The notes beneath the pieces are model-generated. The model was given only the letters and a program-made list of their open reading frames with translations. It was not told the origin of the DNA and ran no database searches. 64,000 nt of DNA from Stagnihabitans lacustris (GTDB taxonomy: Bacteria; Pseudomonadota; Alphaproteobacteria; Rhodobacterales; Rhodobacteraceae): the NCBI RefSeq assembly GCF_025950525.1, contig NZ_JAPDGS010000002.1, positions 496,001 through 560,000 on the forward strand, in the 5' to 3' direction. The position numbers and the translations under genes are program-made. How positions within the stretch are numbered: position 1 is the first letter of the stretch; each line of letters opens with the position of its first letter. Positions 3,776 to 30,024 of the stretch are shown here, piece by piece.

Positions 3776-4373
3776 CATCACGCTGTCCTTCGACACATCG
3801 GCGGCGCATTGCGCCGCCGCTTTGCTTTTCCCCGGCGGCCAGGCCGAGGTGTTCGAGGACATGGCCACCGGCCAGGCCGAAAAGCTGCTTCCGATGGTCG
3901 AGGGGCTGTTGGCCGGGCAGGGCTTTGGCTGGGGCGACGTGACGCTTTTGGCGGTGGGCACTGGGCCGGGCAATTTCACCGGGGTGCGGATCGCGGTGGC
4001 CGCGGCGCGGGGGCTGGCGCTGGGACTGGGCGTGCCCTTGGTCGGCGTGACCTCTTTGCAGGCCCTGCGCCATGGGGTCTCGGGGGCCTTGGCTTGTCTG
4101 GATGCGCGGCGTGGTGCGGTTTATGTGCAGGCCGAGGGGCCGGCGGCTTTGGCGGAATGGGAAGAGCTTTCAGGCTTTTCCCCGGCCTTTACCGTGGGTT
4201 ATCGGGCCGAAGAGCTTGCTGCCCGCTTTGGTGGTGTGGCGCTGCCGACCCCGCCGCTGGCACTGTCCATCGCCCGCGTGGCGGCGGCTGGGCAGGGCGG
4301 CAAGCCCGCGCCCTTCTACTTGCGCGGCGCCGACGCCGCCCCGCCCTCTGACCCGCCGCCGGTGATTCTGTGA
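3765..4373 (+). CDS. tsaB: tRNA threonylcarbamoyladenosine biosynthesis protein TsaB
   Basis: 202 aa, the non-catalytic partner of TsaD in t6A37 formation on ANN-decoding tRNAs. ITLSFDTSAAHCAAAL is the ASKHA-fold phosphate-1-like strand, and VGTGPGNFTGVRIAVAAARGLALGL is the family signature. A TTG start at 3765 inside the end of the nfu gene is chosen because no ATG or GTG fits and the conserved N-terminus begins right there. GAGGTCC lies about 8 nt upstream. It is coupled to rimI. Confidence 0.92.
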   Translation: MRPDITLSFDTSAAHCAAALLFPGGQAEVFEDMATGQAEKLLPMVEGLLAGQGFGWGDVTLLAVGTGPGNFTGVRIAVAAARGLALGLGVPLVGVTSLQALRHGVSGALACLDARRGAVYVQAEGPAALAEWEELSGFSPAFTVGYRAEELAARFGGVALPTPPLALSIARVAAAGQGGKPAPFYLRGADAAPPSDPPPVIL

Positions 4374-4777
4374 CGCCTGCCGCGATGGCGCGGCTTCATG
4401 CCGCTTGCTTTACCCTGCCGCCGCCCTGGTCCGAGGCCGAGTTCGCGGCCACCCTGGCCGGCCGCTTTGCCTTTGTGCTGACGCGGCCCGACGGCTTTCT
4501 TTTGGGTCAGGTCGTGGCGGGCGAGGCCGAGCTTTTGACCATCGCCGTCGACCCGCTTGCGCGTCGACAGGGGATTGGCCGCGACCTTGTGCAAGGATTC
4601 TTGATCGAAGCGCGGGCGCGGGGCGCCGAAACGGCATTTCTGGAGGTCTCCGAGGCCAATCCGGGCGCACAGGCGCTGTATGCGGCCTGTGGTTTCGCGC
4701 CGACCGGGCGGCGGCGGGGCTATTACCGCGGTCAGGGGCAGGTCGAGGATGCGATTTTGATGGGACGAGCGCTTTAA
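4370..4777 (+). CDS. rimI: GNAT acetyltransferase, RimI-like
   Basis: 135 aa, single GNAT domain. The acetyl-CoA loop reads IAVDPLARRQGIGRDLV (the R/Q-x-x-G-x-G/A motif), followed by AQALYAACGF and RRRGYYRG. It is predicted to N-terminally acetylate ribosomal protein S18 or related substrates. GTG start overlapping the tsaB stop by 4 nt. The tsaB-rimI pair is a widespread arrangement, which supports the name over a generic GNAT. Confidence 0.85.
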   Translation: MTPAAMARLHAACFTLPPPWSEAEFAATLAGRFAFVLTRPDGFLLGQVVAGEAELLTIAVDPLARRQGIGRDLVQGFLIEARARGAETAFLEVSEANPGAQALYAACGFAPTGRRRGYYRGQGQVEDAILMGRAL

Positions 4778-4819
4778 GCCCGAAATATTGCGACGAAATT
4801 TCTGGCCCAAGGGCGCGCG

Positions 4820-4835
4820 TTAACTTTTCCTAAAC
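4820..4835 (+). promoter_or_regulatory. CtrA-box-like site upstream of comM
   Basis: TTAA-N7-TAAAC differs by one base from the CtrA consensus TTAA-N7-TTAAC. It lies about 38 nt before the comM start. A further GTTAACC half-site is at 4851-4857. Known background: in Rhodobacter capsulatus, CtrA controls competence-type genes including comM in gene transfer agent recipients. CtrA control here is inference from the motif. Confidence 0.45.
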
Positions 4836-4872
4836 CATCCCAAGTGATCTGTTAACCATTCTGGAGGTCCCT

Positions 4873-6378
4873 ATGGGTGCAGTTGCTTTCACCGTGGCAT
4901 TTGAAGGCGTCGAAGCGCGCCTGGTCGAGGCGCAATGCGCCATCGCCTCTGGCATGGCGACCTTTGGCGTCGTGGGCCTTGCCGACAAAGCGGTCTCCGA
5001 GGCGCGCGAAAGGGTCCGCGCCGCCCTCACCGTCCTGTCGTTCGCCCTGCCCTCCAAGCGGATCACGGTCAATCTCTCGCCTGCGGATCTGCCGAAAGAG
5101 GGGTCGCATTTCGATCTTCCCATCGCCATGGCCGTGCTGGCCGCGCTGGAAATCGTGCCGGCCGATCAGGTTGAAGCCTTTGTCTTCATGGGGGAATTGT
5201 CCTTGGACGGCCGCATCCTGCCTGTCGCCGGCGCCCTGCCCGCGGCGGTGGCAGCCGCGGCCGAAGGCAAGGCGCTGATGGTGCCGCGGGCCTCCGCCGC
5301 CGAGGCCGCCTGGGTCGGCATGACCGAGGTTTACGGCGTCACCACCCTGTCCGAGATCGTAGCGCATTTCACCGGGCGTCAGACATTGACCCGGGCCGAG
5401 GCCGCAGAGATGGCCGAGACCACGCAATTTCCGGACCTGCGCGACGTCAAGGGGCAAGAGCGGGCGAAACGCGCGCTGGAGATTGCCGCCGCGGGCCGCC
5501 ACCACATGCTGATGATCGGCCCTCCCGGTTCGGGAAAATCCATGCTGGCCAAGCGTTTGCCCGGTATCCTGCCGCCGCTGTCGGCCGAAGAGGCGCTGGA
5601 GACCTCGATGGTTCATTCCGTCGCGGGCCTTTTGACGGGCGGCATCACCCGGGCCCGCCCCTTTTGCGATCCGCATCACACGGCCAGCCAAGCCGCCATT
5701 GTCGGCGGCGGGCGGGGGGCGAAACCGGGGCAAATCAGCCTGGCCCACAACGGCGTCCTTTTCATGGACGAGCTGCCGGAATTCCCCCGCATGGTGCTGG
5801 ACACTTTGCGCCAGCCGATGGAATCGGGCGAGGTTATGGTGGCCCGCGCCTCGGCTCATGTCCGCTATCCCTGCCGGTTCCTGCTGGTCGCCGCCGCCAA
5901 TCCCTGCCGCTGTGGCCATATGGCGGATGCCGAAAAGGCCTGCTCCAAGGCGCCGATCTGCGGGCAGGATTACATGGGGCGGATTTCGGGCCCGCTGATG
6001 GACCGCTTCGATCTGCGCGTCGATGTGCCACCGGTGTCCTGGCAAGACCTTGATTTGCCTGCAGACGGAGAGCGGTCCGCCACCATCGCCGCCCGGGTTC
6101 AGGCCGCCCGCGAGATCCAGGCCGAACGCTATCACGGGCTGGATCTGCGGGTGAATTCCGAGGTCGAGGGCGAATTGCTGGATGAGATCGCCCGCCCCGA
6201 TGCCGAGGGTCGGGCCCTGTTGCAACGCGTGGCAGAGCGTTTTGGCCTGACCGCGCGCGGCTATCACCGGGTCTTGCGGGTGGCGCGGACCATTGCCGAT
6301 CTGGAGGCCGCGCCGGATGTGACGCGCGGCCATATCGCCGAGGCGGTCAGCTATCGGACGGTTCTGTCGGCCAAATGA
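4873..6378 (+). CDS. comM: ComM/YifB-family AAA+ ATPase
   Basis: 501 aa, full length for the family. An N-terminal ChlI/Lon-like domain (from MGAVAFTVAFEGVEARLVE) is followed by a Mg-chelatase-type AAA module with Walker A GPPGSGKSMLAKRL (about residue 217) and Walker B NGVLFMDELPEF. The zinc-finger-like insert AANPCRCGHM...C and a C-terminal ChlI domain follow. ComM is a branch-migration helicase helping integrate incoming single-stranded DNA. ATG at 4873 with GGAGG upstream. It is convergent with the hydrolase, overlapping it by 28 nt. Confidence 0.93.
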   Translation: MGAVAFTVAFEGVEARLVEAQCAIASGMATFGVVGLADKAVSEARERVRAALTVLSFALPSKRITVNLSPADLPKEGSHFDLPIAMAVLAALEIVPADQVEAFVFMGELSLDGRILPVAGALPAAVAAAAEGKALMVPRASAAEAAWVGMTEVYGVTTLSEIVAHFTGRQTLTRAEAAEMAETTQFPDLRDVKGQERAKRALEIAAAGRHHMLMIGPPGSGKSMLAKRLPGILPPLSAEEALETSMVHSVAGLLTGGITRARPFCDPHHTASQAAIVGGGRGAKPGQISLAHNGVLFMDELPEFPRMVLDTLRQPMESGEVMVARASAHVRYPCRFLLVAAANPCRCGHMADAEKACSKAPICGQDYMGRISGPLMDRFDLRVDVPPVSWQDLDLPADGERSATIAARVQAAREIQAERYHGLDLRVNSEVEGELLDEIARPDAEGRALLQRVAERFGLTARGYHRVLRVARTIADLEAAPDVTRGHIAEAVSYRTVLSAK

Positions 6379-7223
6379 GCGACAAACGCCGCCACTTCGC
6401 GCAGCGCCGCGCGGGCTTCGGGCAAATAACCGTCGAACATCTGCCAGACATGCGGGCAATCCGGCCATTCCGAAAGCCGCGCACCCAGCACTTTGGTCAT
6501 CCGGCGGGCATCGTCGCGCAGAACCTCGGTCGTGCCGGTCTGGATCAGGACGGGGGGCGGATCGGGAAAGGCGGCGAACAGCGGCGAGATGCGGGGGTCC
6601 GTGGGCGCGAGGGTGCCGCGGACAAGCGTTGCGGCCTCTGCGACCCGATGCGCGGGCAAAAGCACGTCCGAATCGGCGTTCGTAAGCAGGCTTTCTCCGC
6701 CAAGGGTCAGATCGGTCCAGGGTGAAAAGGCAAAGAGCCCGGCCGGCGGGCGGCCCGTCTGGCAGAGGTGCGACATCAAGGCCAGCGCCAAGCCTCCCCC
6801 CGCGCTGTCACCGCCCAAGATGATGTTCTGCCACGGATAAATCCGCGAAAGCCGCTCATGCGCGGCAAGGGCAGCGTCAAAAGCGGCGGGCGCCGGATGT
6901 TCGGGAGCAAGCGGATAGCGCGGGGCAAAAACCGGTAGGCCGGTCAGCCGGGCCAGGCGCCCGGTGATGGTCAGGTGGGTCTCGGGGCTGCCGGTGATAT
7001 AGGCGCCGCCGTGGAAATAAAGCACGGCATGGGTGTCATTGGTCAGGTGACAGGTGACGCGGGGCAGGGGGCCGTCCAGAAAACACAGATGCGCCGGGCG
7101 ATGCAAAAAGCGCGCGGCGCTGGCGAAGCGGCGCCTCTCGACCCCGGGGTTGCGAGCACGGGCGACCGAGGGTCGCGCCGTCCAGCGCAGAAGCAGGTTC
7201 AAGAGGCGCAGCGACAGGCTCAT
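6351..7223 (-). CDS. alpha/beta hydrolase (HSL/GDXG carboxylesterase family)
   Basis: 290 aa. Contains YFHGGAY (the HGG oxyanion motif), [11 protein letters not shown] (GDSAGG nucleophile elbow), an acid region near [13 protein letters not shown] and a C-terminal HVW... histidine, as in bacterial hormone-sensitive-lipase-type esterases. No signal peptide, so cytoplasmic. The start at 7223 makes an ATGA overlap with the gshB stop; the frame is open upstream inside gshB but that part is out of family. Substrate unknown, probably short acyl esters. Confidence 0.85.
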
Positions 7224-8167
7224 CTGGCGGCGATCTTGGCCTCGATCACCTGCCAGATCCGCGCGGCGGTGTTGGTGCCGTCGAAACGCTCCAACTCCTG
7301 GATACCGGTCGGAGAGGTCACGTTGATCTCGGTCAGGTAGTCGCCGATGACGTCGATGCCGACAAAGACCTGACCCTTCTCGCGCAAGGTCGGACCGATG
7401 GCGGCGCAAATCTCCAGGTCGCGCGGCGTAAGGCCCACCTTCTCGGGGCGGCCGCCGGCGTGCATGTTGGACCGGGTTTCGCCGGCCTGGGGCACGCGGT
7501 TGATGGCGCCGACAGGCTCGCCGTCCACCAGGATTATGCGCTTGTCGCCATGGACCACGTCGGGAAGGAACTTCTGGACGATCAGCGGCTCGCGGCTCAT
7601 CGACGTGAAAAGCTCATGTAGCGAAGACAGGTTGCGGTCGTTGGGGTCAAGCCGGAAGACCCCGGCCCCGCCGTTGCCGTAAAGCGGCTTGAGGATGACA
7701 TCGCCATGCTTGGCCTTGAAAGCGCGGATGGTGGCAAGGTCACGGGCGATGGCGGTGGGCGGATGCAGGTCGGGGAATTGCAGGACCAGCAGCTTTTCAG
7801 GGCAGTTGCGCACCCAGAAAGGATCATTGACGACAAGCGTCTTGGGATGGATCAGATCCAGAAGATGTGTCGTGGTGATATAGCCCATGTCGAAGGGGGG
7901 GTCCTGGCGCAGCCAGACGACATCGCAGGTCGCAAGATCCACCTCGGTCTCGGGCCCATAGGTGACATGGTTGCCCTCTTCGCGGCGCAGGGTGATCGGA
8001 AACCCGCGCGCCACCACACGCCCCTCGACGAAGGCCAGCTTGTCAGGCGTATAAAAGAACAGGGAATGACCCCGATCCTGCGCCTCCAGCGCGATGCGGA
8101 AGGTGCTGTCCCCGTTGATATTGACCGACCCGATCGGGTCCATCTGCAAAGCGACGTTCAAGCCCAT
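7220..8167 (-). CDS. gshB: glutathione synthase
   Basis: 315 aa, ATP-grasp enzyme joining gamma-glutamylcysteine and glycine. The N-terminus [16 protein letters not shown] is diagnostic, [17 protein letters not shown] is the ATP-grasp glycine-rich loop, and [22 protein letters not shown] carries the metal/substrate residues. The gene lies downstream of rsmI-yraN on the same strand and is translationally coupled to the hydrolase. Confidence 0.97.
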
Positions 8168-19224: not shown

Positions 19225-20931
19225 ATGTCCTATAAAATCCCGCGCGCCGATTATGCGGCGATGTATGGGCCGACCACGGGCGACCGGGTGCGCCTTGGCG
19301 ATACGGATATCATCATCCAGGTCGAACGCGACCTGACGACCTATGGCGAAGAGGTCAAGTTCGGCGGCGGCAAGGTGATCCGTGACGGGATGGGCCAGTC
19401 CCAGATCCCCCGCGCGGGGGGGGCGGCGGATACCGTCATCACCAATGCGCTGATCCTGGACCACTCGGGCATCTACAAGGCCGATGTGGGCCTGCGCGAC
19501 GGGCGCATCGCGGGCATCGGCAAGGCGGGCAACCCCGACACGCAAACCGGCGTCACCATCATCATCGGCCCGTCCACCGAGATCATCGCCGGAGAGGGCA
19601 AGATCCTGACCCCCGGCGGCTTTGACGCCCATATCCACTTCATCGCTCCGGGTCAGGTCGAGGACGCGCTCCATTCCGGCATCACCACGATGCTGGGCGG
19701 CGGCACCGGCCCCGCGCATGGGACTTTGGCCACGACCTGCACGCCGGGCCCCTGGCACATCGGGCGGATGCTGCAGGCCTTGGACGGCTTGCCCATGAAC
19801 TTCGGCCTGTCCGCCAAGGGCAATGCCAGCCGCCCCGAGGCCTTGGTGGAAATGGTGCGCGCCGGCGCCTGCGCCATGAAACTGCATGAGGATTGGGGCA
19901 CGACGCCCGCCGCCATCGACTGCTGTCTTTCGGTGGCCGACGATATGGATGTGCAGGTGATGATCCACACCGACACGCTGAATGAATCCGGCTTCGTGGA
20001 AAACACCATGGCCGCGATCCGGGGCCGCACGATCCATGCCTTTCACACCGAGGGCGCGGGCGGCGGCCATGCGCCCGACATCATCAAGGTCGTGGCTGCG
20101 GAAAACGTCATCCCCTCGTCGACCAACCCGACGATGCCCTATACCGTCAACACGCTGGAAGAGCATCTGGACATGCTGATGGTCTGCCATCACCTTGACC
20201 AGTCGATCCCCGAGGACGTGGCCTTCGCGGAATCCCGCATCCGCCGCGAGACCATCGCGGCGGAGGATATCCTGCATGACATGGGCGCATTTTCCATCAT
20301 GTCGTCTGACAGTCAGGCCATGGGGCGTGTGGGCGAGGTCATCACCCGCACCTGGCAGACCGCCCATAAGATGAAACTCCAACGCGGCCGCCTGTTCGAT
20401 GAAAAGGGCGACAACGACAACATCCGCGCCAAGCGCTATATCGCGAAATACACGATCAACCCCGCCATCGCCCAGGGGATGAGCCGCCACATCGGCTCCA
20501 TCGAGGTCGGCAAACGCGCCGACCTCGTCCTGTGGTTCCCGGCGTTTTTCGCAGCCAAACCCGAGATGGTCTTGATCGGCGGCATGATCGTTTGTGCGCA
20601 GATGGGCGATACGAACGCCTCTATCCCGACGCCGCAGCCGACCTATTCCCGTCCGATGTTCGGCGCCATGGGCCGCGCGGTCGAACGCAACGCGGTGATC
20701 TTTGTCAGCCAGGCCGCACAGGCCGACGGTCTGGCGCATCTGGGTCTGGCCAAATCGCTGGTCGCGGTGGAAAACACCCGCAAGATCGGCAAGTCCAGCA
20801 TGATCCACAACAGCGCCAAGCCCCATATCGAGGTGAACCCGGAAACCTATGAGGTCCGCGCCGATGGCGAACTTTTGACCTGTGAACCCGCAAGCGAGCT
20901 TCCCCTCGCCCAACGCTATTTCCTGTATTGA
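19225..20931 (+). CDS. ureC: urease alpha (catalytic) subunit
   Basis: 568 aa amidohydrolase with a bi-nickel centre. Visible active-site parts: DAHIHF (two Ni-binding His), AMKLHEDWG (the Lys to be carbamylated and a Ni His), [25 protein letters not shown], the mobile-flap CHHL, and [10 protein letters not shown] (Ni-binding Asp). All residues appear intact, so an active enzyme is expected once metallated. Confidence 0.99.
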
Positions 20932-20933
20932 CC

Positions 20934-21512
20934 ATGAGCCTTCTGACCACAGCCCGCCAAGTGATCCGCAGCCCCAAGGGCGTCACGGCGCATGACCATG
21001 TGACCCTGACCTATGACGAACGCTTCTTGCGCCGGAAGCGCCTTGTGACGGCGCATGACCTTAGCTTCATGGTCAACCTGGCCGAGACCCTGTCGCTGAA
21101 CCACGGCGACTGTTTTGGGCTGGACGATGGCCGCCTGATCCAGGTCATTGCCGCCGAAGAGCCCGTCGTGGTGATCCAGGGCGACCTGGCGCGGCTGGCT
21201 TGGCATATCGGCAACCGCCACACGCCTTGCCAGATCGAGGCCGCGCGCCTGCTCATCCGTCAGGACCACGTGATCGAGGCGATGTTGGCGCAGCTTGGCG
21301 CGACGTTGTCCCGCGCGATCGAGCCCTTCACCCCCGAAGGCGGCGCCTATGGCCATGGCAGAACCATGGGCCACAGCCATGGGGAAAATAGCCATGGGGA
21401 AAATAGTCACGGGGAACATGGTCACGGGGGGCACAGTCACGGGGGGCACAGCCACGCCCCCGCCTTTGACCCTGCCGCCCCGGTCCCGCTTTTCCCCTTT
21501 GCGATGAAATGA
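20934..21512 (+). CDS. ureE: urease accessory nickel chaperone UreE with His-rich tail
   Basis: 192 aa. N-terminal UreE domain with YDERFLRRKRLVT, then the C-terminal domain (WHIGNRHTPCQIE) and a long His/Gly tail (about residues 140-175) made of HGENS/HGGHS-type pentads. The last part is [17 protein letters not shown]. The tail should bind several Ni ions. ATG at 20934, 2 nt after the ureC stop. It overlaps ureF by 4 nt. Confidence 0.96.
   Translation: MSLLTTARQVIRSPKGVTAHDHVTLTYDERFLRRKRLVTAHDLSFMVNLAETLSLNHGDCFGLDDGRLIQVIAAEEPVVVIQGDLARLAWHIGNRHTPCQIEAARLLIRQDHVIEAMLAQLGATLSRAIEPFTPEGGAYGHGRTMGHSHGENSHGENSHGEHGHGGHSHGGHSHAPAFDPAAPVPLFPFAMK
21378..21452 (+). repeat. 15-bp coding tandem repeat (5 units) in ureE
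   Basis: Five 15-bp units, each beginning CA(T/C)GGGG, encode HGENS, HGENS, HGEHG, HGGHS, HGGHS. The first two units differ by one base and the last two by one base, so the tail grew by recent slippage or duplication. Unit number is likely to vary between strains. Confidence 0.85.
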
Positions 21513-22288
21513 CGGACGCGATGGCGGACGAGATGGCAGGGGAGATAGCCGGGGAGATAACGGGGGCGGGCAGTCCTTCCTTGCGCCCCCCGGATGACGC
21601 GCCCTCGGCCGCTGTCTTGGCGCATAGTGTCAACCCATCCCCGGCGATCCCGCAGCCTCAGGCGCGGCTGATCCTGACACAGCTGCTGTCGCCGGCCTTT
21701 CCGGTTGGCAGCTACGCCTATTCCCAGGGGCTAGAGGTCGCCATGGTTCAGGCCACAGGCTTGGCCACGGTCCATGACGCGGCCTCGCTTGAGGCTTGGG
21801 TCGAGGGTGTCATCCTGTATGGCTCTGGCCGGATCGACGCCGCCTTTGTCGCCGAGGCCCGCGCGCCCGGAGCCGACTTGCCCGCGCTGGCCGCCCTGGC
21901 CCTGGCCTATGCCACCTCGGGCGAACGCGCGGCCGAATTGCGCGACCAGGGCGCGGCCTTCGCCGTCTGTGCCCGGGCGCTGGGGCTGGACTGCCCGGAC
22001 CTGCCCTATCCCGTGGCGCTGGGGGCCGCCACCGCCGCCCTGCCACTGGAAACCGCCGAGGTCGTGGCGCTGTATCTTCAGGCCCTTGCGGCGCAGCTGA
22101 TCTCGGCCGCCGTGCGCTTTTTGCCGCTGGCTGCGACCCAGGGCCAGCAGGTCCTGGCCCGGCTGGCTCCCAGTTTTGTGGCCCCCAGTTTCGCCCCAAA
22201 CCCGCAAGGCCTCACCTCGGCCCATCTGACGGCCGACCTCGCCGCCATGGCGCATGAAACCCTGCAACCAAGGATTTTCCGCACATGA
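21509..22288 (+). CDS. ureF: urease accessory protein UreF
   Basis: 259 aa. [22 protein letters not shown] is the UreF hallmark, starting at about residue 53. It is a helical GTPase-regulating partner of UreG in the UreDFG complex. The first ~50 residues are a low-complexity extension ([19 protein letters not shown]...) built from a repeated GAGAT-rich DNA segment. Internal ATGs at 21521 and 21530 are alternative starts. The 4-nt overlap with ureE favours 21509. Confidence 0.93.
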
Positions 22289-22929
22289 CCCACACCGGTC
22301 CCCAATCCACCGGTCCCCTCAAAGTCGGCATCGGCGGCCCGGTCGGCGCTGGCAAGACCTCGCTGACCGAACAGCTGTGCCGGGCGCTGGCGCATCGCTG
22401 TTCCATGGCGGTGATCACGAATGACATCTACACGCGTGAGGATGCCGATTACCTGACCCGCGCCCAGGTCCTGCCCTCTGACCGCATCCGCGGCGTGGAA
22501 ACCGGCGGCTGCCCCCATACGGCGATCCGCGAGGACGCCAGCATCAACCTTTCGGCCGTGGCCGACCTGCGGCGCCAGTTCCCCGACCTGGACCTGATCC
22601 TGATCGAAAGCGGCGGCGACAACCTCTCGGCCACCTTCTCGCCGGAACTGGCCGACCTTAGCATCTACATCATCGACACCGCCGCCGGTCAGGACATCCC
22701 GCGCAAAAAGGGCCCGGGCGTGACGAAATCCGACCTGTTGGTGGTCAACAAGACCGACCTTGCCCCCCATGTCGGCGTCGATCCCGTGCTGCTGGAGGAA
22801 GACACCAAGCGCGCCCGCGGCACCAAGCCCTATGTCATGGCCCGCATCCGCCATGGCCTCGGCATTGACCAGGTCGTGGCCTTCCTGGAACACGAAGGCG
22901 GCCTGGAGCTTTCGCCCAAAGCCGCCTGA
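22285..22929 (+). CDS. ureG: urease accessory GTPase UreG
   Basis: 214 aa SIMIBI-class GTPase. P-loop [15 protein letters not shown], the nickel CPH motif in [26 protein letters not shown] and the NKTDLAP base-recognition motif are all present. It couples GTP hydrolysis to Ni delivery into UreC. Last gene of the operon, overlapping ureF by 4 nt. Confidence 0.98.
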
Positions 22930-25379: not shown

Positions 25380-27029
25380 ATGACCAAAATCTTGCATATC
25401 AACCTTTTTGGCGCCTGCAGCGTGACCGGAACCGCCCCAAGCGGCGCCTTCGAGGTCAAGCCAGCCAAGCACCGCGCGCTTTTCGCGCTGTTGGCCACGG
25501 CCAATGGCGGGCGGCGGACGCGGGTCTGGTTGCTGAACATGCTTTGGGGCGCCTCGGCCCATGACGGCGGGCGCCAGTCGCTGCGCACCGCCCTGTCCAA
25601 GCTGCGCACCGAGATGGGCGGCGCCTTTGACCTGCTGCTAAAGGTCGACAACACCGAAATCACGCTGGACCTGTCGAAGGTCGAATTCACCGGGGCCCCC
25701 AGCGCCGGAGAGTTCCTGGAGGGCATCGACATCCGCGACGACGACTTCAACCACTGGCTGCAGGGCATCCGCCAGGCGCCGGACCAGTATTTCGCCCTGT
25801 TGCGCGGCGGGGCGGCGCCTGCGCCCGCGGCCCGCGCCATCCTGCCCGCCATCGCGATCCTGCCCTTTCGCCTGGTGGCCGGAGAGGCGATCCACACGGT
25901 CCTGGGCGACTGGCTGGCCGAGGAAATCTGCCGCGCCCTGTCGCGCAGCCCGCTGCTGACGGTGATTTCCCACCTGTCCTCGCGTGAGATCAGCGCGCAG
26001 CGGCCCGACACCCAGCGTCTGCGCCGGGCCCTGGGGGTGGATTACGCCGTCTTGGGCAGCCTAAGGGTCCTGGGCGAAAAGGTCGTGCTGGATGCCGATT
26101 GCATCGACGTGGCCACCGGGCGCATCCTGTGGACCCGTCAGGCCCAGGGTCGCATGGCCGATTTCCTGGCCCCCGATGCCGATTCCGTGGCCGAGATCGT
26201 CCGCGCCATCGGCCGCACCGTCGCAACCGAGGCGCTGACCCATGCCCGCGGCCGCAGCCTGAAGGCGCTGGCCGATCACCACCCGCTGATTGCCGGGGTG
26301 GGGATGATGCATGAACTGCGGCTGTCGTCATTCTCGAAATCGCGTGAGCTGATCGAAGAGGCGATCCGCCGCGCCCCCGCCGTGCCCGAAGCCCATGCCT
26401 GGCTGGCGGAGTGGTATGTGATGGCGATCTTCAACGGCTGGTCGGATGACACCTTGCGCGACGCGGGCCGCGCCATGGCCGCCACCGAAGAGGCGCTGAC
26501 CATCGACCCCGATAACACATTTGCCCTGACCATCGACGGGGTGGTGATGAACAACCTGTTTCAGCGGCTGGATACGGCGGGGGCGCGGTTCGACACGGCG
26601 CTGGACCTCAATCCGAATGAAAGCCTGGCCTGGCTTTTGTCCTCGGTGCTTGCGGCTTACCGCGATGACGGGGCGGGGGCGGTGATGCGGGCGGAACAGG
26701 CGATCCGGCTCTCTCCGGTCGATCCCTTTGGCTATTTCTACGACGCCATGGCCTCGACCGCCTATGCCGCGGCCGAGGATTGGACCCGCACACTAGAGCT
26801 GGCGGACCGGTCCCTGGCGCGCAACGACCGGCATATCTCGACGCTGCGGGCGAAGATTTGCGCGCTGCATCACCTGGGACGGGGCGGCGAGGCGCGCCAG
26901 GTGGCGAACGAGTTGAAACGCAGGCAGCCGGGGTTTTCGGTGGCGCAATATCGCCGCACCCATCCGGCCGCCGAGGCGAAGATTGGACAAAGGGTCGTCT
27001 CTGCCCTGCTGGAGGCCGGCCTGACCTGA
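25380..27029 (+). CDS. winged-helix / TolB-like / TPR regulator (SARP/CadC-like architecture)
   Basis: 549 aa. Residues ~1-100 resemble a BTAD/SARP-type DNA-binding domain (INLFGACSVTG, KHRALFALLA, GGRQSLRTALSKLR). Residues ~160-290 look like the TolB-like domain found in adenylate-cyclase-type regulators: AIAILPFRLV, DWLAEEICRALSRSPLLTVISHLSSREIS, ALGVDYAVLGSLRVLGEKVVLDADCIDVATGRILW. The C-terminal half is TPR-like (PEAHAWLAEWYVMA, RFDTALDLNPNESLAWLLSSVLAAY). No TM segment, receiver or kinase domain. The ATG at 25380 is chosen because homology starts there, although its ribosome-binding site is weak. First gene of the trio with the PAP2-like and subtilase genes. Confidence 0.75.
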   Translation: MTKILHINLFGACSVTGTAPSGAFEVKPAKHRALFALLATANGGRRTRVWLLNMLWGASAHDGGRQSLRTALSKLRTEMGGAFDLLLKVDNTEITLDLSKVEFTGAPSAGEFLEGIDIRDDDFNHWLQGIRQAPDQYFALLRGGAAPAPAARAILPAIAILPFRLVAGEAIHTVLGDWLAEEICRALSRSPLLTVISHLSSREISAQRPDTQRLRRALGVDYAVLGSLRVLGEKVVLDADCIDVATGRILWTRQAQGRMADFLAPDADSVAEIVRAIGRTVATEALTHARGRSLKALADHHPLIAGVGMMHELRLSSFSKSRELIEEAIRRAPAVPEAHAWLAEWYVMAIFNGWSDDTLRDAGRAMAATEEALTIDPDNTFALTIDGVVMNNLFQRLDTAGARFDTALDLNPNESLAWLLSSVLAAYRDDGAGAVMRAEQAIRLSPVDPFGYFYDAMASTAYAAAEDWTRTLELADRSLARNDRHISTLRAKICALHHLGRGGEARQVANELKRRQPGFSVAQYRRTHPAAEAKIGQRVVSALLEAGLT

Positions 27030-27054
27030 TTTCCTGAAACCCAAGGGGGATTTG

Positions 27055-28146
27055 ATGTCGACGTTTAACACTCAACACGGATTGCACGGTTTGCATGGTC
27101 TTCACGGCCTGCATGGTTTGCACGGGCTGCATGGCCTTCATGGTCTGCACGGGCTGCACGGATTGCACGGCTTGGGCGCGGCGGGGCCGGGGGCCGAGTC
27201 GGGCCAGCAATCCGCCGCCGAGGCCATGATGCACGCGGCGGGCCTTGCGCCCTTGCCCGAGGCGGGGATTGCGCCCCTGGCCCGGAACAGCGCCACCCAC
27301 ATGCGGCGCTGGGCGCCCGAAGTGCGGGGGATGCTGCTGCAAGGGGCGGTGGCGGCCAAGGCGGGCCATGCGGTCGATCCGGCGGGCGATTTCGTCTCGC
27401 TGACCTGGGGCGGCAACACGGTGGCCACGCTTTTGCCGCCCGATGCGGCCACCTTGGCCCGGCAATGCGACCTCGTGCGCTATTACGCCGATCAGCGCAG
27501 CGACCGCAGCGCCGAGGTCTTCAGCCAGATGGACGCCTTTACCGCCTATTTCGGGCATCTGATGGGCCTGACCGCGGCGCGCAATCCCAAAACGCTAGAG
27601 CTTTTGTCCCTGGTGCCGGCCATCGCCGGGCCGCTGACTATGGTGGCGAAACATGTCTTTGCCGTCCGCCGCCCGGCTGAACTGGATGTGCGGGTGGCCC
27701 CCCTGATCGGCACGCCGGGCCATGGCGCCTATCCTTCCGGCCATGCGGCTCAGGCCATGGCCATGGCCGTGGTGGCCGAGGCGCTGATCCTGTCGACCCC
27801 CGCCCATTTCGGCGATGCGGCGGCGCGGGTCGACCTGGTTTACCGCGCGGCGCAGCGCATCGCCTGCAACCGCACGGTGGCGGGCGTGCATTACCCGATG
27901 GATTCCGCGGCGGGCGCTCGGTTGGGGCTGCAGATCGGCCGCATCCTGGTGGCCATGGCGACGGGGGGCGGTTCGGTGCGCGATCTTGCCCCCTTTGACC
28001 CCAACACCGACCCGGCCCGCGACTATCTTTACGACGACACCAAGGCGCTGTGGACGGCTGCGGGCCAAGGCAACCCCGTCCCGGTCGCGGGCGATCCGCT
28101 TTGGGCCTGGGCCTGGGGCGAGGCCGCCCGCGAATTCACTCTGTGA
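27055..28146 (+). CDS. PAP2/vanadium-haloperoxidase-fold protein with N-terminal (His-Gly-Leu)11
   Basis: 363 aa. After MSTFNTQ come eleven uninterrupted HGL triplets (residues 8-40), then a soluble helical domain. The PAP2/haloperoxidase triad motifs are intact: K199-x6-R206-P207, YPSGH (P227-H230) and R273-x5-H279-x3-D283. It has no signal peptide and no TM helices, unlike lipid phosphatases of this superfamily, so a soluble phosphatase or vanadate-dependent haloperoxidase is more likely. The ATG at 27055 follows AAGGGGGA. It starts 25 nt after the regulator and ends 9 nt before the subtilase gene. Function unknown. Confidence 0.8.
   Translation: MSTFNTQHGLHGLHGLHGLHGLHGLHGLHGLHGLHGLHGLGAAGPGAESGQQSAAEAMMHAAGLAPLPEAGIAPLARNSATHMRRWAPEVRGMLLQGAVAAKAGHAVDPAGDFVSLTWGGNTVATLLPPDAATLARQCDLVRYYADQRSDRSAEVFSQMDAFTAYFGHLMGLTAARNPKTLELLSLVPAIAGPLTMVAKHVFAVRRPAELDVRVAPLIGTPGHGAYPSGHAAQAMAMAVVAEALILSTPAHFGDAAARVDLVYRAAQRIACNRTVAGVHYPMDSAAGARLGLQIGRILVAMATGGGSVRDLAPFDPNTDPARDYLYDDTKALWTAAGQGNPVPVAGDPLWAWAWGEAAREFTL
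27076..27174 (+). repeat. 11 x 9-bp coding repeat (His-Gly-Leu)
   Basis: Eleven CA(C/T)-GG(N)-(T/C)T(N) units without interruption. His uses both codons, Gly all four, and Leu TTG, CTT and CTG, so the DNA units differ while the peptide is invariant. Slippage alone would leave identical units; selection on the peptide is the simplest explanation. Confidence 0.95.
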
Positions 28147-28155
28147 GGCCGCGCC

Positions 28156-30024
28156 ATGACCCAATTGTCCGATCTTGGCCCGCATGAGCGTTGGCTTTAC
28201 GGCCCCGGCCAGGCCTATGACCTGCCGGGGCTTTGGCTGGACGCCTCGCCCAGCCTGTCTTGCCTGGCCGAGTTCCCGACCCCGGTCCGCAATCCCCTGA
28301 CCGCGCTGGGCAGCCTGTTGCGGGCCGATGGCGTGACCATGAAACCGCGCCTGCCGCCGCTGTGGCGTCCGGACAGCTTTCACCCGACCTTCTTGCCCTT
28401 CTTCCTGGAGCCGGGGCAGGTCACGCCGCTGTCGGCCCATGATCCGGCCAGCCTGGCCACGATGCTGGGTCTTCTGCCGCCCAGGCCGCGGCATCTGCGG
28501 CTGAACTTCCCGCTGCGCTCCGAGACGATCAACCAAGGCACCGCGCCCGCCATGCCGCAAGCGCCCGCCTTGGCCGCGGGAACGCCGCTGGTGGTGGTGG
28601 GCGTGATCGACCACGGCATCGGCTTTGCCCACCAGGCCTTGCGCGACCGGATGGACTATTGCTGGTCGCAATCGGCCTTGGCGGGGCCGGGCCAGCCCGT
28701 GCCCTTTGGCCGCGAGTTCACGCGGGATCAGATCGCGGGGGCGGATGAAGACAGCCTTTACCGCGCGGCGGGCCTTCTGGGCGGGGCCAACCGTCCGCCG
28801 ATGCCCCTGGCGCGGCGCGTGACCCATGGCACCCATGTGCTTGGCACCGCAGCCCAAGGCCCGGATCAGGTGCGGCTTGTGGCGGTCGATCTGCCCGCGA
28901 CCGCGCTGTGGGACACCTCTGGCTTTGGCACCGACATGTTCCTTCTGTCGGCGCTGCATTACATCTTTGACCGCGCCGACCGCATCGCCGCGGCCCATGG
29001 CCTGCCCGCCGTGCCGGTTGTGGTCAATATCTCTTTGGGTTGGTCGGGTGGGCCGCATGACGGGTCCTCGCCCATCGAGGCCGCCCTGGCCGAGATCATC
29101 ACCCACCGCCGAACCCTTGCGCCAACGCTTTTGGTGCTGCCCTCGGGCAACATGCTGAACCATCAGCTTTCGGCGCGGCTGGAGGATGGGCATTTCGTGG
29201 CGGGTCAGGCTGCGATCGGCTGGTTCGCGCCGCCCTGCGACATGACCTCGTCCTTTGCCGAGGTCTGGTTGCCGGGCGGTCCAGAGGGGTATCAGGTCTC
29301 GCTGACCGCGCCGAATGGTCAGGCCGTGACGCTAAGCGCGCCCGGTTGGCAGGATGTGACGGTCGAGGGGCGGACGGTCGGCCTTGCGATGCTGGACCAG
29401 CAGCGCGGGCGCTGGCGGGCGACGTTTTGCCTGGCGCCGACCGAGCCCAAGGCGCGGCCTCCGCTGCCGCATGGGCCTGCCCCGGCTGGGGAATGGCGGA
29501 TCGCGGTGCGCAGGCCTGCGACGGCCCGGGGCGTGGTGCAGGTCCGCATCCAGCGCGACGAGGACATGGGCCATACCGGCGCCCGCCAGTCGCGGCTGAT
29601 CGACCCGGCCCATGCGCCCTTTGACGTCTGGGGCGCCCCGGGCCAAGAGGACAACGGCGCCATGATCTCGCGCCGCGACGGGCTGAACGGGCTGGCGACG
29701 CAAGTTGTGTCGTTGAACGTCGGCGGAAGCGTCGATGCGACGGGGCGACCGGCGCGCTATTCCTCGGCGGGGATGGGGCGCGGCGTCGATGTCTCGGCGC
29801 CTGCGGACCGCGGGAATGTCCGCAAGGGGGTCCTGTCGCTGGCCACAAGCAGCGGCGGAGTTGCGGTGCGGTCGGGCACGTCCTCGGCGGCGCCCTGTGT
29901 GGCTTCGGCGCTGGCGCTGGCGCTGTTGACCGGCGCGCAGCCCCTGGGCAATGGCGCCAACCTTCTGACGGGCACGCCTGTGCCGCCTGACCTGACCCAT
30001 CGTCTGGGCGCGCTGCGACTTTAG
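28156..30024 (+). CDS. S8 family (subtilisin-like) serine protease, apparently cytoplasmic
   Basis: 622 aa. Catalytic triad motifs are intact: VGVIDHGIGF (D152), THGTHVLGTAA (H224) and SGTSSAAP (S576), with VLPSGN supplying the oxyanion Asn. There is an insert of about 330 residues between the Asn region and the Ser, including a beta-rich part (WLPGGPEGYQVSLTAPNGQ). The N-terminus MTQLSDLGPHERWLYG has no signal peptide and no obvious inhibitor propeptide. It is 9 nt downstream of the PAP2-like gene, hence co-transcribed. Substrate unknown. Confidence 0.88.
   Translation: MTQLSDLGPHERWLYGPGQAYDLPGLWLDASPSLSCLAEFPTPVRNPLTALGSLLRADGVTMKPRLPPLWRPDSFHPTFLPFFLEPGQVTPLSAHDPASLATMLGLLPPRPRHLRLNFPLRSETINQGTAPAMPQAPALAAGTPLVVVGVIDHGIGFAHQALRDRMDYCWSQSALAGPGQPVPFGREFTRDQIAGADEDSLYRAAGLLGGANRPPMPLARRVTHGTHVLGTAAQGPDQVRLVAVDLPATALWDTSGFGTDMFLLSALHYIFDRADRIAAAHGLPAVPVVVNISLGWSGGPHDGSSPIEAALAEIITHRRTLAPTLLVLPSGNMLNHQLSARLEDGHFVAGQAAIGWFAPPCDMTSSFAEVWLPGGPEGYQVSLTAPNGQAVTLSAPGWQDVTVEGRTVGLAMLDQQRGRWRATFCLAPTEPKARPPLPHGPAPAGEWRIAVRRPATARGVVQVRIQRDEDMGHTGARQSRLIDPAHAPFDVWGAPGQEDNGAMISRRDGLNGLATQVVSLNVGGSVDATGRPARYSSAGMGRGVDVSAPADRGNVRKGVLSLATSSGGVAVRSGTSSAAPCVASALALALLTGAQPLGNGANLLTGTPVPPDLTHRLGALRL

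Follow-up and report, generated by a model that had tools for sequence, protein, structure and literature searches.

What joins a regulator, a phosphatase-like enzyme and a subtilase in three consecutive genes, and why does the middle gene open with eleven copies of one tripeptide? The locus that raises these questions occupies positions 25,380 to 30,024 of a 64,000-nucleotide (nt) stretch of the Stagnihabitans lacustris genome (contig NZ_JAPDGS010000002.1, positions 496,001 to 560,000), here called the window. We find that a tandem array of short peptide units at the N-terminus of the PAP2-fold enzyme is a near-universal, lineage-private feature of the family, with the tetratricopeptide repeat (TPR) region of the linked regulator (REG) covarying with it; both points were missed in an earlier note on this DNA. 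The genes and their segments are as follows.

25380..27029, + strand: regulator REG, 549 amino acids (aa); winged helix-turn-helix (wHTH) head, TolB/FlgO-like middle, C-terminal TPR domain
25380..25829, + strand: REG head (residues 1-150); wHTH in the window copy, class III nucleotidyl cyclase elsewhere
25845..26279, + strand: REG TolB-like middle (residues 156-300); TolB/FlgO matches weak both in the window copy and in homologues
26280..27026, + strand: REG TPR domain (residues 301-549); the REG segment whose divergence follows the array unit
27055..28146, + strand: PAP2-fold enzyme, 363 aa from ATG; core resembling class A acid phosphatases, catalytic residues conserved
27076..27174, + strand: (HGL)11 array, PAP2 residues 8-40; predicted to be disordered
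28156..30024, + strand: subtilase S8, 622 aa; model nearest to the clostridial Csp germination proteases

The earlier note had described a tight same-strand trio with an (HGL)11 stretch, and both descriptions hold: the three frames are intact, the gaps are 25 and 9 nt, and exactly 11 HGL units are counted at 27076-27174.

Distribution of the array

After identical PAP2 cores were collapsed, 212 distinct PAP2 copies remained, and 208 of them carry a homogeneous tandem array of 2-6-residue units at the N-terminus (the other four are L098, L203, L257 and L277). The period is three residues in 154 copies, four in 40, two in 10, five in two and six in two, and there are 114 distinct units (for example HGL, GGF, NSQ, SGGV and NRD). 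Arrays within the genus consist of HGL, HGM or HGI, and those of the next relatives of GGA, WTG, NVG, NSQ, KSG or NAG. A scan of named genomes for PAP2 relatives, of which we used the best 80 of 372 for all counts on named loci, gave 79 loci with a run; the frame of the remaining one, L098, is broken at that place, and the run of L135 sits in and beside masked bases. By a strict test the array is present in 135/139 PAP2 proteins, 1/137 S8 proteins, 0/140 REG proteins and 7/685 neighbouring or window genes, all seven being one homologous AAPAKK-tailed gene of Hydrogenophaga and similar loci. That gene is histone-like, has a variable tail and lies upstream of the trio in Hydrogenophaga-type loci (e.g., L115, 4129-4569). 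No array was found in 14 PAP2 relatives from viral contigs (0/14), and a search of the whole S. lacustris genome gave no further HGL-HGL-HGL, so there is no cognate HGL repeat elsewhere. In the AlphaFold2 model of the window PAP2, residues 1-42 have a predicted local distance difference test score (pLDDT) below 50, and 282 of the 363 residues have one of 90 or more.

Units in the strict-test PAP2 set, nearly all of which have an S8 partner, favour Gly, Ser, Asn and His and carry little charge (7 charged residues among 252, with 51 expected). Charge depletion as a general rule is rejected, as it is absent in some later copies and in a PAP2 sister group, where the units NR, SR, NRD and DAR are charged; GKE, GRS and AGR occur in some loci with S8. 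The metal handling proposed in the earlier note is not supported either, and metal binding by HGL is rejected as a general role because HGL is one of 114 units, most of which have no His.

Covariation of the array unit with the regulator

Among pairs of loci whose PAP2 cores are at least 80% identical (one duplicate record included), those with the same unit (n = 35) have identities of 0.92 in the TPR domain, which is thus the most conserved part of REG, 0.88 in the head and 0.89 in the TolB segment, compared with 0.80, 0.79 and 0.83 for pairs with different units (n = 69). A controlled test on 127 loci used the identities of PAP2, head, TolB and S8 as covariates. In it, TPR identity is higher in pairs with a shared unit, by 0.036 at a PAP2 threshold of 0.6 (446 pairs), 0.070 at 0.7 (144 pairs) and 0.081 at 0.8 (93 pairs), with a permutation p of 0.0005 in all three cases, the effect at the threshold of 0.7 corresponding to a partial r of 0.64. 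In the same test TolB, head and S8 show no positive unit effect beyond chance (p 0.48-1.0), and for S8 the relation is, if anything, reversed (r -0.24 at thresholds 0.6 and 0.7). Extreme pairs illustrate the effect: L094 and L077 (SGGY and SAGV) are 0.98 identical in PAP2, 0.89 in the head and 0.90 in TolB, with 0.69 in the TPR domain, and L113 and L107 (TGL and SGV) have a TPR identity of 0.73 versus 0.92 in the head.

In tandem loci the significant REG windows cover residues 401-549, and in the two most diverged switched pairs the divergent tract, which includes the array, takes in the last 450 nt of REG in L077/L094 and the last 750 nt in L107/L113 and much less of the PAP2 side (delta up to 0.32 on the REG side, 0.12 and then at most 0.09 on the PAP2 side). 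Such a signal could arise from linkage, and therefore 60 further regions were fetched, which added 54 distinct PAP2 copies, 52 of them with an array, and the loci were split by orientation. REG is in tandem with PAP2 in 131 of the 212 copies, divergent in 68 and downstream in five, and eight copies have no REG nearby; the split test excluded 14 of the 212 (no array, no near REG, a REG frame of at most 380 aa, L135 and L183). In divergent loci the start of REG, not its TPRs, adjoins the array, and linkage there would favour the head. These loci (downstream ones included) show their main unit signal in REG residues 301-450 (r 0.48, p 0.001, 140 pairs, 52 loci; r 0.43, p 0.039, 53 pairs at PAP2 identity of at least 0.6), with windows at 321-430 and a peak at 341-370 (r 0.60), and no unit signal in residues 451-549. 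L271 and L261, for example, share the unit GQ and are 0.87 identical in the TPR domain, with 0.64 in PAP2 and 0.57 in the head. As far as sequence comparison can tell, the TPR domain of REG, and not the head or the TolB segment as a whole, seems to covary with the array unit.

Evolution of the array

Array units are under protein-level constraint, being uniform in protein and synonymously saturated in DNA. Only 4 of 1223 units differ from the consensus of their array, with proportions of synonymous and non-synonymous differences (pS and pN) of 0.756 and 0.022, where pN is biased low because arrays were detected as perfect runs and then extended tolerantly. More than one DNA unit is found in 129 of 131 arrays of at least five copies, and of 36 arrays with Ser, 11 mix TCN and AGY codons for it, a count in which L107 and its duplicate L183 are separate entries. 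Recent slippage as the source of uniformity is rejected for most arrays since synonymous sites are saturated; DNA-identical units occur in the array of L080 and in the unmasked part of that of L135. On account of its masked bases L135 was dropped from the pS/pN, codon-match, segment-identity, controlled and orientation-split analyses, and L183 was dropped from the controlled and orientation-split tests and kept in the pS/pN and segment-identity comparisons.

Between relatives the units turn over fast. The unit is common to 19/31 pairs at 90-100% core identity, 15/70 at 80-90%, 27/62 at 70-80%, 1.8% of pairs at 40-50% and 0.7% at 30-40%, the extreme switch being that from SGGY to SAGV at 98% core identity in L094/L077. 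Position-by-position codon homology of orthologous arrays is absent in most tested pairs: L082 and L083 share a unit and have a core synonymous codon identity of 0.83, and their arrays match at 0.54, the shuffled level, while L072/L076 are among the same-unit orthologues that do keep codon correspondence. Eight opened records out of 21 near-identical Phaeobacter plasmid copies all have the unit NSF in 5, 6 or 7 copies. An NSF array also heads the PAP2 of a Parasedimentitalea marina plasmid (L221), whose frame is broken further on.

Exchangeable heads and proteases

Two parts of the system vary. REG heads alternate between wHTH and class III cyclase on one TolB-TPR body (two groups in alignment A2); the cyclase profile PF00211 scores above cut-off in L118 and L122 and below it in L075. 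A CRP/FNR gene, called by PF00027 in L122 and by similarity to the L122 gene in other loci, lies within the flanking sequence fetched for 22 of 26 loci with a cyclase head and for 2 of 55 others; these two are L095, whose REG frame is short, and L142, whose head the profile does not call as cyclase. The cyclase/CRP loci have three arrangements, and most belong to Comamonadaceae and hence are not independent.

The sister group comprises 20 loci, 19 of them with arrays, and its third gene differs in kind. It is papain-like in L176 (PF00112 above cut-off), in L178 and L207 (below cut-off) and, by motif only, in L204 and L198, and a subtilase (PF00082) in L202, L206 and L208; the papain motif also occurs in L149, L178 and L180 of the earlier locus set. 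No protease was recognised, by frames and motifs only, behind PAP2 in L194, L196, L197, L199, L200, L212 and L213. Behind the PAP2 of L197 lies a gene of the histone-deacetylase family (PF00850, 3943-5028), and behind that of L196 a SAM-cyclase-AAA-TPR protein (4103-7462).

Conservation and context

The earlier note would have been refuted by a neighbourhood conserved in no other genome; the neighbourhood is conserved. With neighbours called by their own profiles (E<=1e-5), S8 stands by PAP2 in 80/80 named loci and REG in 78/80, and 69 have the exact tandem order REG, PAP2, S8. The named relatives span Rhodobacterales, Roseibium, Kiloniella, Bradyrhizobium, Hydrogenophaga, Paraburkholderia and others. 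In a separate sample of 61 genomes the subtilase was found in 11 (genus 7/16, other genera of the taxonomic family 4/21, outside that family 0/24), and by gene calls all 12 loci fetched at subtilase hits have a PAP2 homologue and 11 also have a REG homologue, the contig running out in L018. The PAP2-core alignment A1 has matches in 125/394 genomes of the family (E<=1e-15) and 7/289 of the class (1e-30), and the larger alignment A4 in 19/398 of the phylum (1e-30), sister group included in all three counts. PAP2 relatives were further found in 34 plasmid records, labelled, where a label is given, PAP2 or hypothetical (one match also touches an S8 gene); four opened records label the genes 'phosphatase PAP2', 'S8 peptidase' or hypothetical, and 'winged helix-turn-helix' or hypothetical.

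The claim that both enzymes have intact catalytic motifs is borne out by near-invariance of the residues. Among the 212 PAP2 copies K199 is kept in 211, S228 in 207, and R206, H230, R273, H279 and D283 in all 212, with position 229 being G in 145, A in 53, N in 13 and H in one; among 186 subtilases D152 is kept in 185, H224 in 186 and S576 in 180 (five gaps, one R). The window proteins match PF01569 (36.8 bits versus a cut-off of 27.2, 3.8e-9) and PF00082 (43.4 bits versus 21.8, 3.4e-11). The wHTH match of the window REG (PF00486, E 0.012) and its TPR matches are below cut-off, and both domains exceed it in several homologues (wHTH 2.2e-12 in L124). The earlier note saw no export signal on either enzyme, and by crude hydropathy none of the three window proteins has a hydrophobic N-terminal segment.

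Outside the trio the context differs beyond the genus. In the window, genes recognised by eye as urease genes and then ilvD lie upstream (19225-22929), and ilvD remains beside the trio in genus members fetched with that flank. A comparison of the flanks of 83 named or plasmid loci and the window gave three recurrent families. An animal haem peroxidase (PF03098, scanned in L085, 9920-11713) and a trypsin plus alpha/beta-hydrolase family (scanned in L082, 11780-14320) each flank six loci, namely L081, L082, L083, L085 and L102 with L106 or L111; a second subtilase flanks four, L072 (10369-12462), L066, L069 and L076, and was scanned in L072 only, where it has PatG_D/PatG_C domains. On the Paracoccus zhejiangensis plasmid pPZ01 (L141) genes annotated as caspase-family, TssH and filamentous haemagglutinin lie close to the trio.

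Discussion

We give about an even chance to the proposal, drawn from sequence patterns, that the three genes form one insulated circuit in which the TPR domain of REG reads the PAP2 array as a private docking code. The disordered array would be bound by the C-terminal TPR superhelix, and PAP2 would dock only with its cognate regulator. Once docked, it may fix the output head, either wHTH or a cyclase feeding the nearby CRP, in one state, and the adjacent protease (subtilase, or papain-like in part of the sister group) may cut one partner and so end or alter docking. Any unit would work with a matching TPR groove, hence the unit could drift between lineages, and units within an array would stay identical so that the TPR domain can bind in any register. 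Physical binding, the direction of control, the substrates of the protease and of PAP2, and the trigger are all parts that we infer. Docking is the simplest reading for the uniformity of the array, the freedom of the unit, the covariation of the TPR domain, the lack of covariation of S8, and the variable head and protease. A wider generalisation falls slightly short of an even chance in our estimate: that this would be a natural peptide code, in which the TPR superhelix of a regulator would read a tag of uniform tandem oligopeptides on its partner enzyme, code and reader having co-diversified (114 units) in Alpha- and Betaproteobacteria to give insulated circuits whose head type and protease fold vary.

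Several observations weigh against docking. With greedy disjoint pairs (27 same-unit, 50 different-unit) the first statistic, the plain difference, gave p 0.11 overall, 0.28 for tandem and 0.0034 for divergent loci; the log-ratio of distances speaks for covariation (p 5e-5, 0.0027 and 1.9e-4) but was picked after this result, to deal with the ceiling in highly similar pairs. The tandem signal adjoins the array and may stem in part from a recombination tract common to both. The covarying stretch is not the same in the two orientations (401-549 and 321-430), and divergent loci have a weaker bump in the TolB segment (REG 201-250, p 0.01-0.02). The permutation null is rough (an r near 0 can give p 0.004 or 0.999) and phylogeny is corrected only partly. 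In L068/L070 the unit changed (GGI and GGV) and the TPR domain is as conserved as the rest (0.93 and 0.93), and in L160/L143 the TPR identity is 0.82 versus 0.56 for the rest despite a change from GAY to YGGQGA. Paralogues within a genome share no unit (0/25 pairs), but at 23-45% identity they are too divergent to indicate avoidance.

Linkage alone, with the array a neutral flexible linker in fast-turnover DNA and the 3' end of REG sharing its recombination tract, is unlikely in our view. The tracts in L077/L094 and L107/L113 (shorter in other pairs) fit it, as do the copy number of 5-7 in the Phaeobacter plasmids and the scrambled array codons of L082/L083; uniformity is not required of a neutral linker, whereas the arrays are uniform despite saturated synonymous sites, the tract is asymmetric, and in divergent loci the TPR domain covaries and the nearer head does not. 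Homotypic assembly, in which PAP2 would cluster in any register as a gel, filament or amyloid-like body and private units would separate paralogous systems, we regard as quite unlikely. It would suit the charge-poor Gly/Ser/Asn/His composition of the strict-test set and the disorder predicted for the monomer, and it is opposed by the charged units of the sister group and of some S8 loci and does not predict TPR covariation; the paralogue comparison, at 23-45% identity, carries no information on it.

The protease enters two further explanations. It might free di- to hexapeptides that bind the TPR domain like RRNPP pheromones, with units as pherotypes; identical copies, a protease partner, a TPR receptor and TPR covariation would all be expected of such a precursor, and the second subtilase in four flanks and the PatG domains in L072 point the same way. 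We nevertheless judge a precursor decidedly unlikely, since S8 identity does not follow the unit, no export signal is seen on the window proteins, and 7 of 20 sister-group loci keep the array with no protease recognised behind PAP2 (by frames and motifs; the rest of those genomes was not searched). Alternatively, the array could be a zymogen tail that inhibits or tethers PAP2 until the protease removes it and releases active phosphatase. CspB activates a zymogen, and the Csp germination proteases are the nearest structural relatives of S8; retention of the array where no protease is recognised and the lack of S8 covariation make this explanation very improbable.

If the TPR domain does read the array, nature would hold many ready-made, possibly orthogonal tag-reader pairs, and loci that the four opened plasmid records annotate only as PAP2, S8 peptidase, wHTH or hypothetical would gain a function. 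There would also be an evolutionary puzzle, as all units of an array switch together and synonymous codons remain scrambled.

Comparison with known systems

The earlier note knew of no described system with this gene set, and a literature search aimed at the trio, with most subscription journals and all preprints outside its scope, likewise found no paper on it. The constituent domain families are known, and we know of no described system with an array-coded pairing of enzyme and regulator. A link to defence, one of the roles suggested before, is so far unsupported: the three window proteins have no PADLOC match at E<=0.01 (best IetS, 0.034, for S8), with island context not systematically covered. 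Seven proteins of other loci gave RT-Protease_XI at 1.4e-8 (trypsin part, L082), 'subtilase' at 4.3e-21 (L072) and PycC at 1e-4 (cyclase head, L075), which we read as shared domain types. Phage origin is rejected, as a phage collection gave no match and the PAP2 relatives on viral contigs, 14 in all, are remote and lack arrays. Also rejected are membership in the Hxs system, where the HGL stretch is a weak match to the His-Xaa-Ser repeat protein HxsA4 (NF038313, 24.8 bits versus a cut-off of 55) that is unit-specific because relatives carry many other units, and a collagen-like protein (PF01391, 15.2 bits versus 27.2; the units NSQ, STQ, EAV and LQS have no Gly).

Of the phosphatase or haloperoxidase suggested in the earlier note, the predicted fold favours the phosphatase. 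The closest structures to the PAP2 model are soluble class A acid phosphatases (E 7e-6), and the first vanadium peroxidase ranks behind (E 2e-3), so that the vanadium haloperoxidase fold is not nearer. The predicted fold is shared with PhoN, PhoC and 7f17 (TM-score on target about 0.6-0.7), and so are the residues of KX6RP, PSGH and RX5HX3D, the signature of class A acid phosphatases. Unlike these enzymes, the trio PAP2 has an N-terminal array, a linked regulator and protease and no export signal seen, and its third motif has NR where they have SR. The best structural matches of S8 are the clostridial Csp germination subtilases (CspB 4i0w, CspA, CspC; E 1.7e-21), with 14-18% identity in alignments; the germination role and partners are not shared as far as seen. 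RRNPP regulators, like REG, combine a DNA-binding head with a TPR domain thought to read peptide, whereas REG heads are wHTH/TolB or cyclase and the peptide here forms part of an enzyme, as a long array.

A parallel comes from protein design. Repeat proteins that bind four to six tandem tripeptides one-to-one have been designed (PMC10115654), and the proposed array-TPR geometry is for this reason feasible. The designed proteins, as described there, resemble the proposed REG TPR domain in that a superhelix reads identical tandem peptide units; they differ in having polyproline II targets, whereas the trio is natural, its binding is proposed from sequence, and its units have 2-6 residues. If the docking proposal is correct, a specificity code of the kind that this design work built from scratch would exist in nature.

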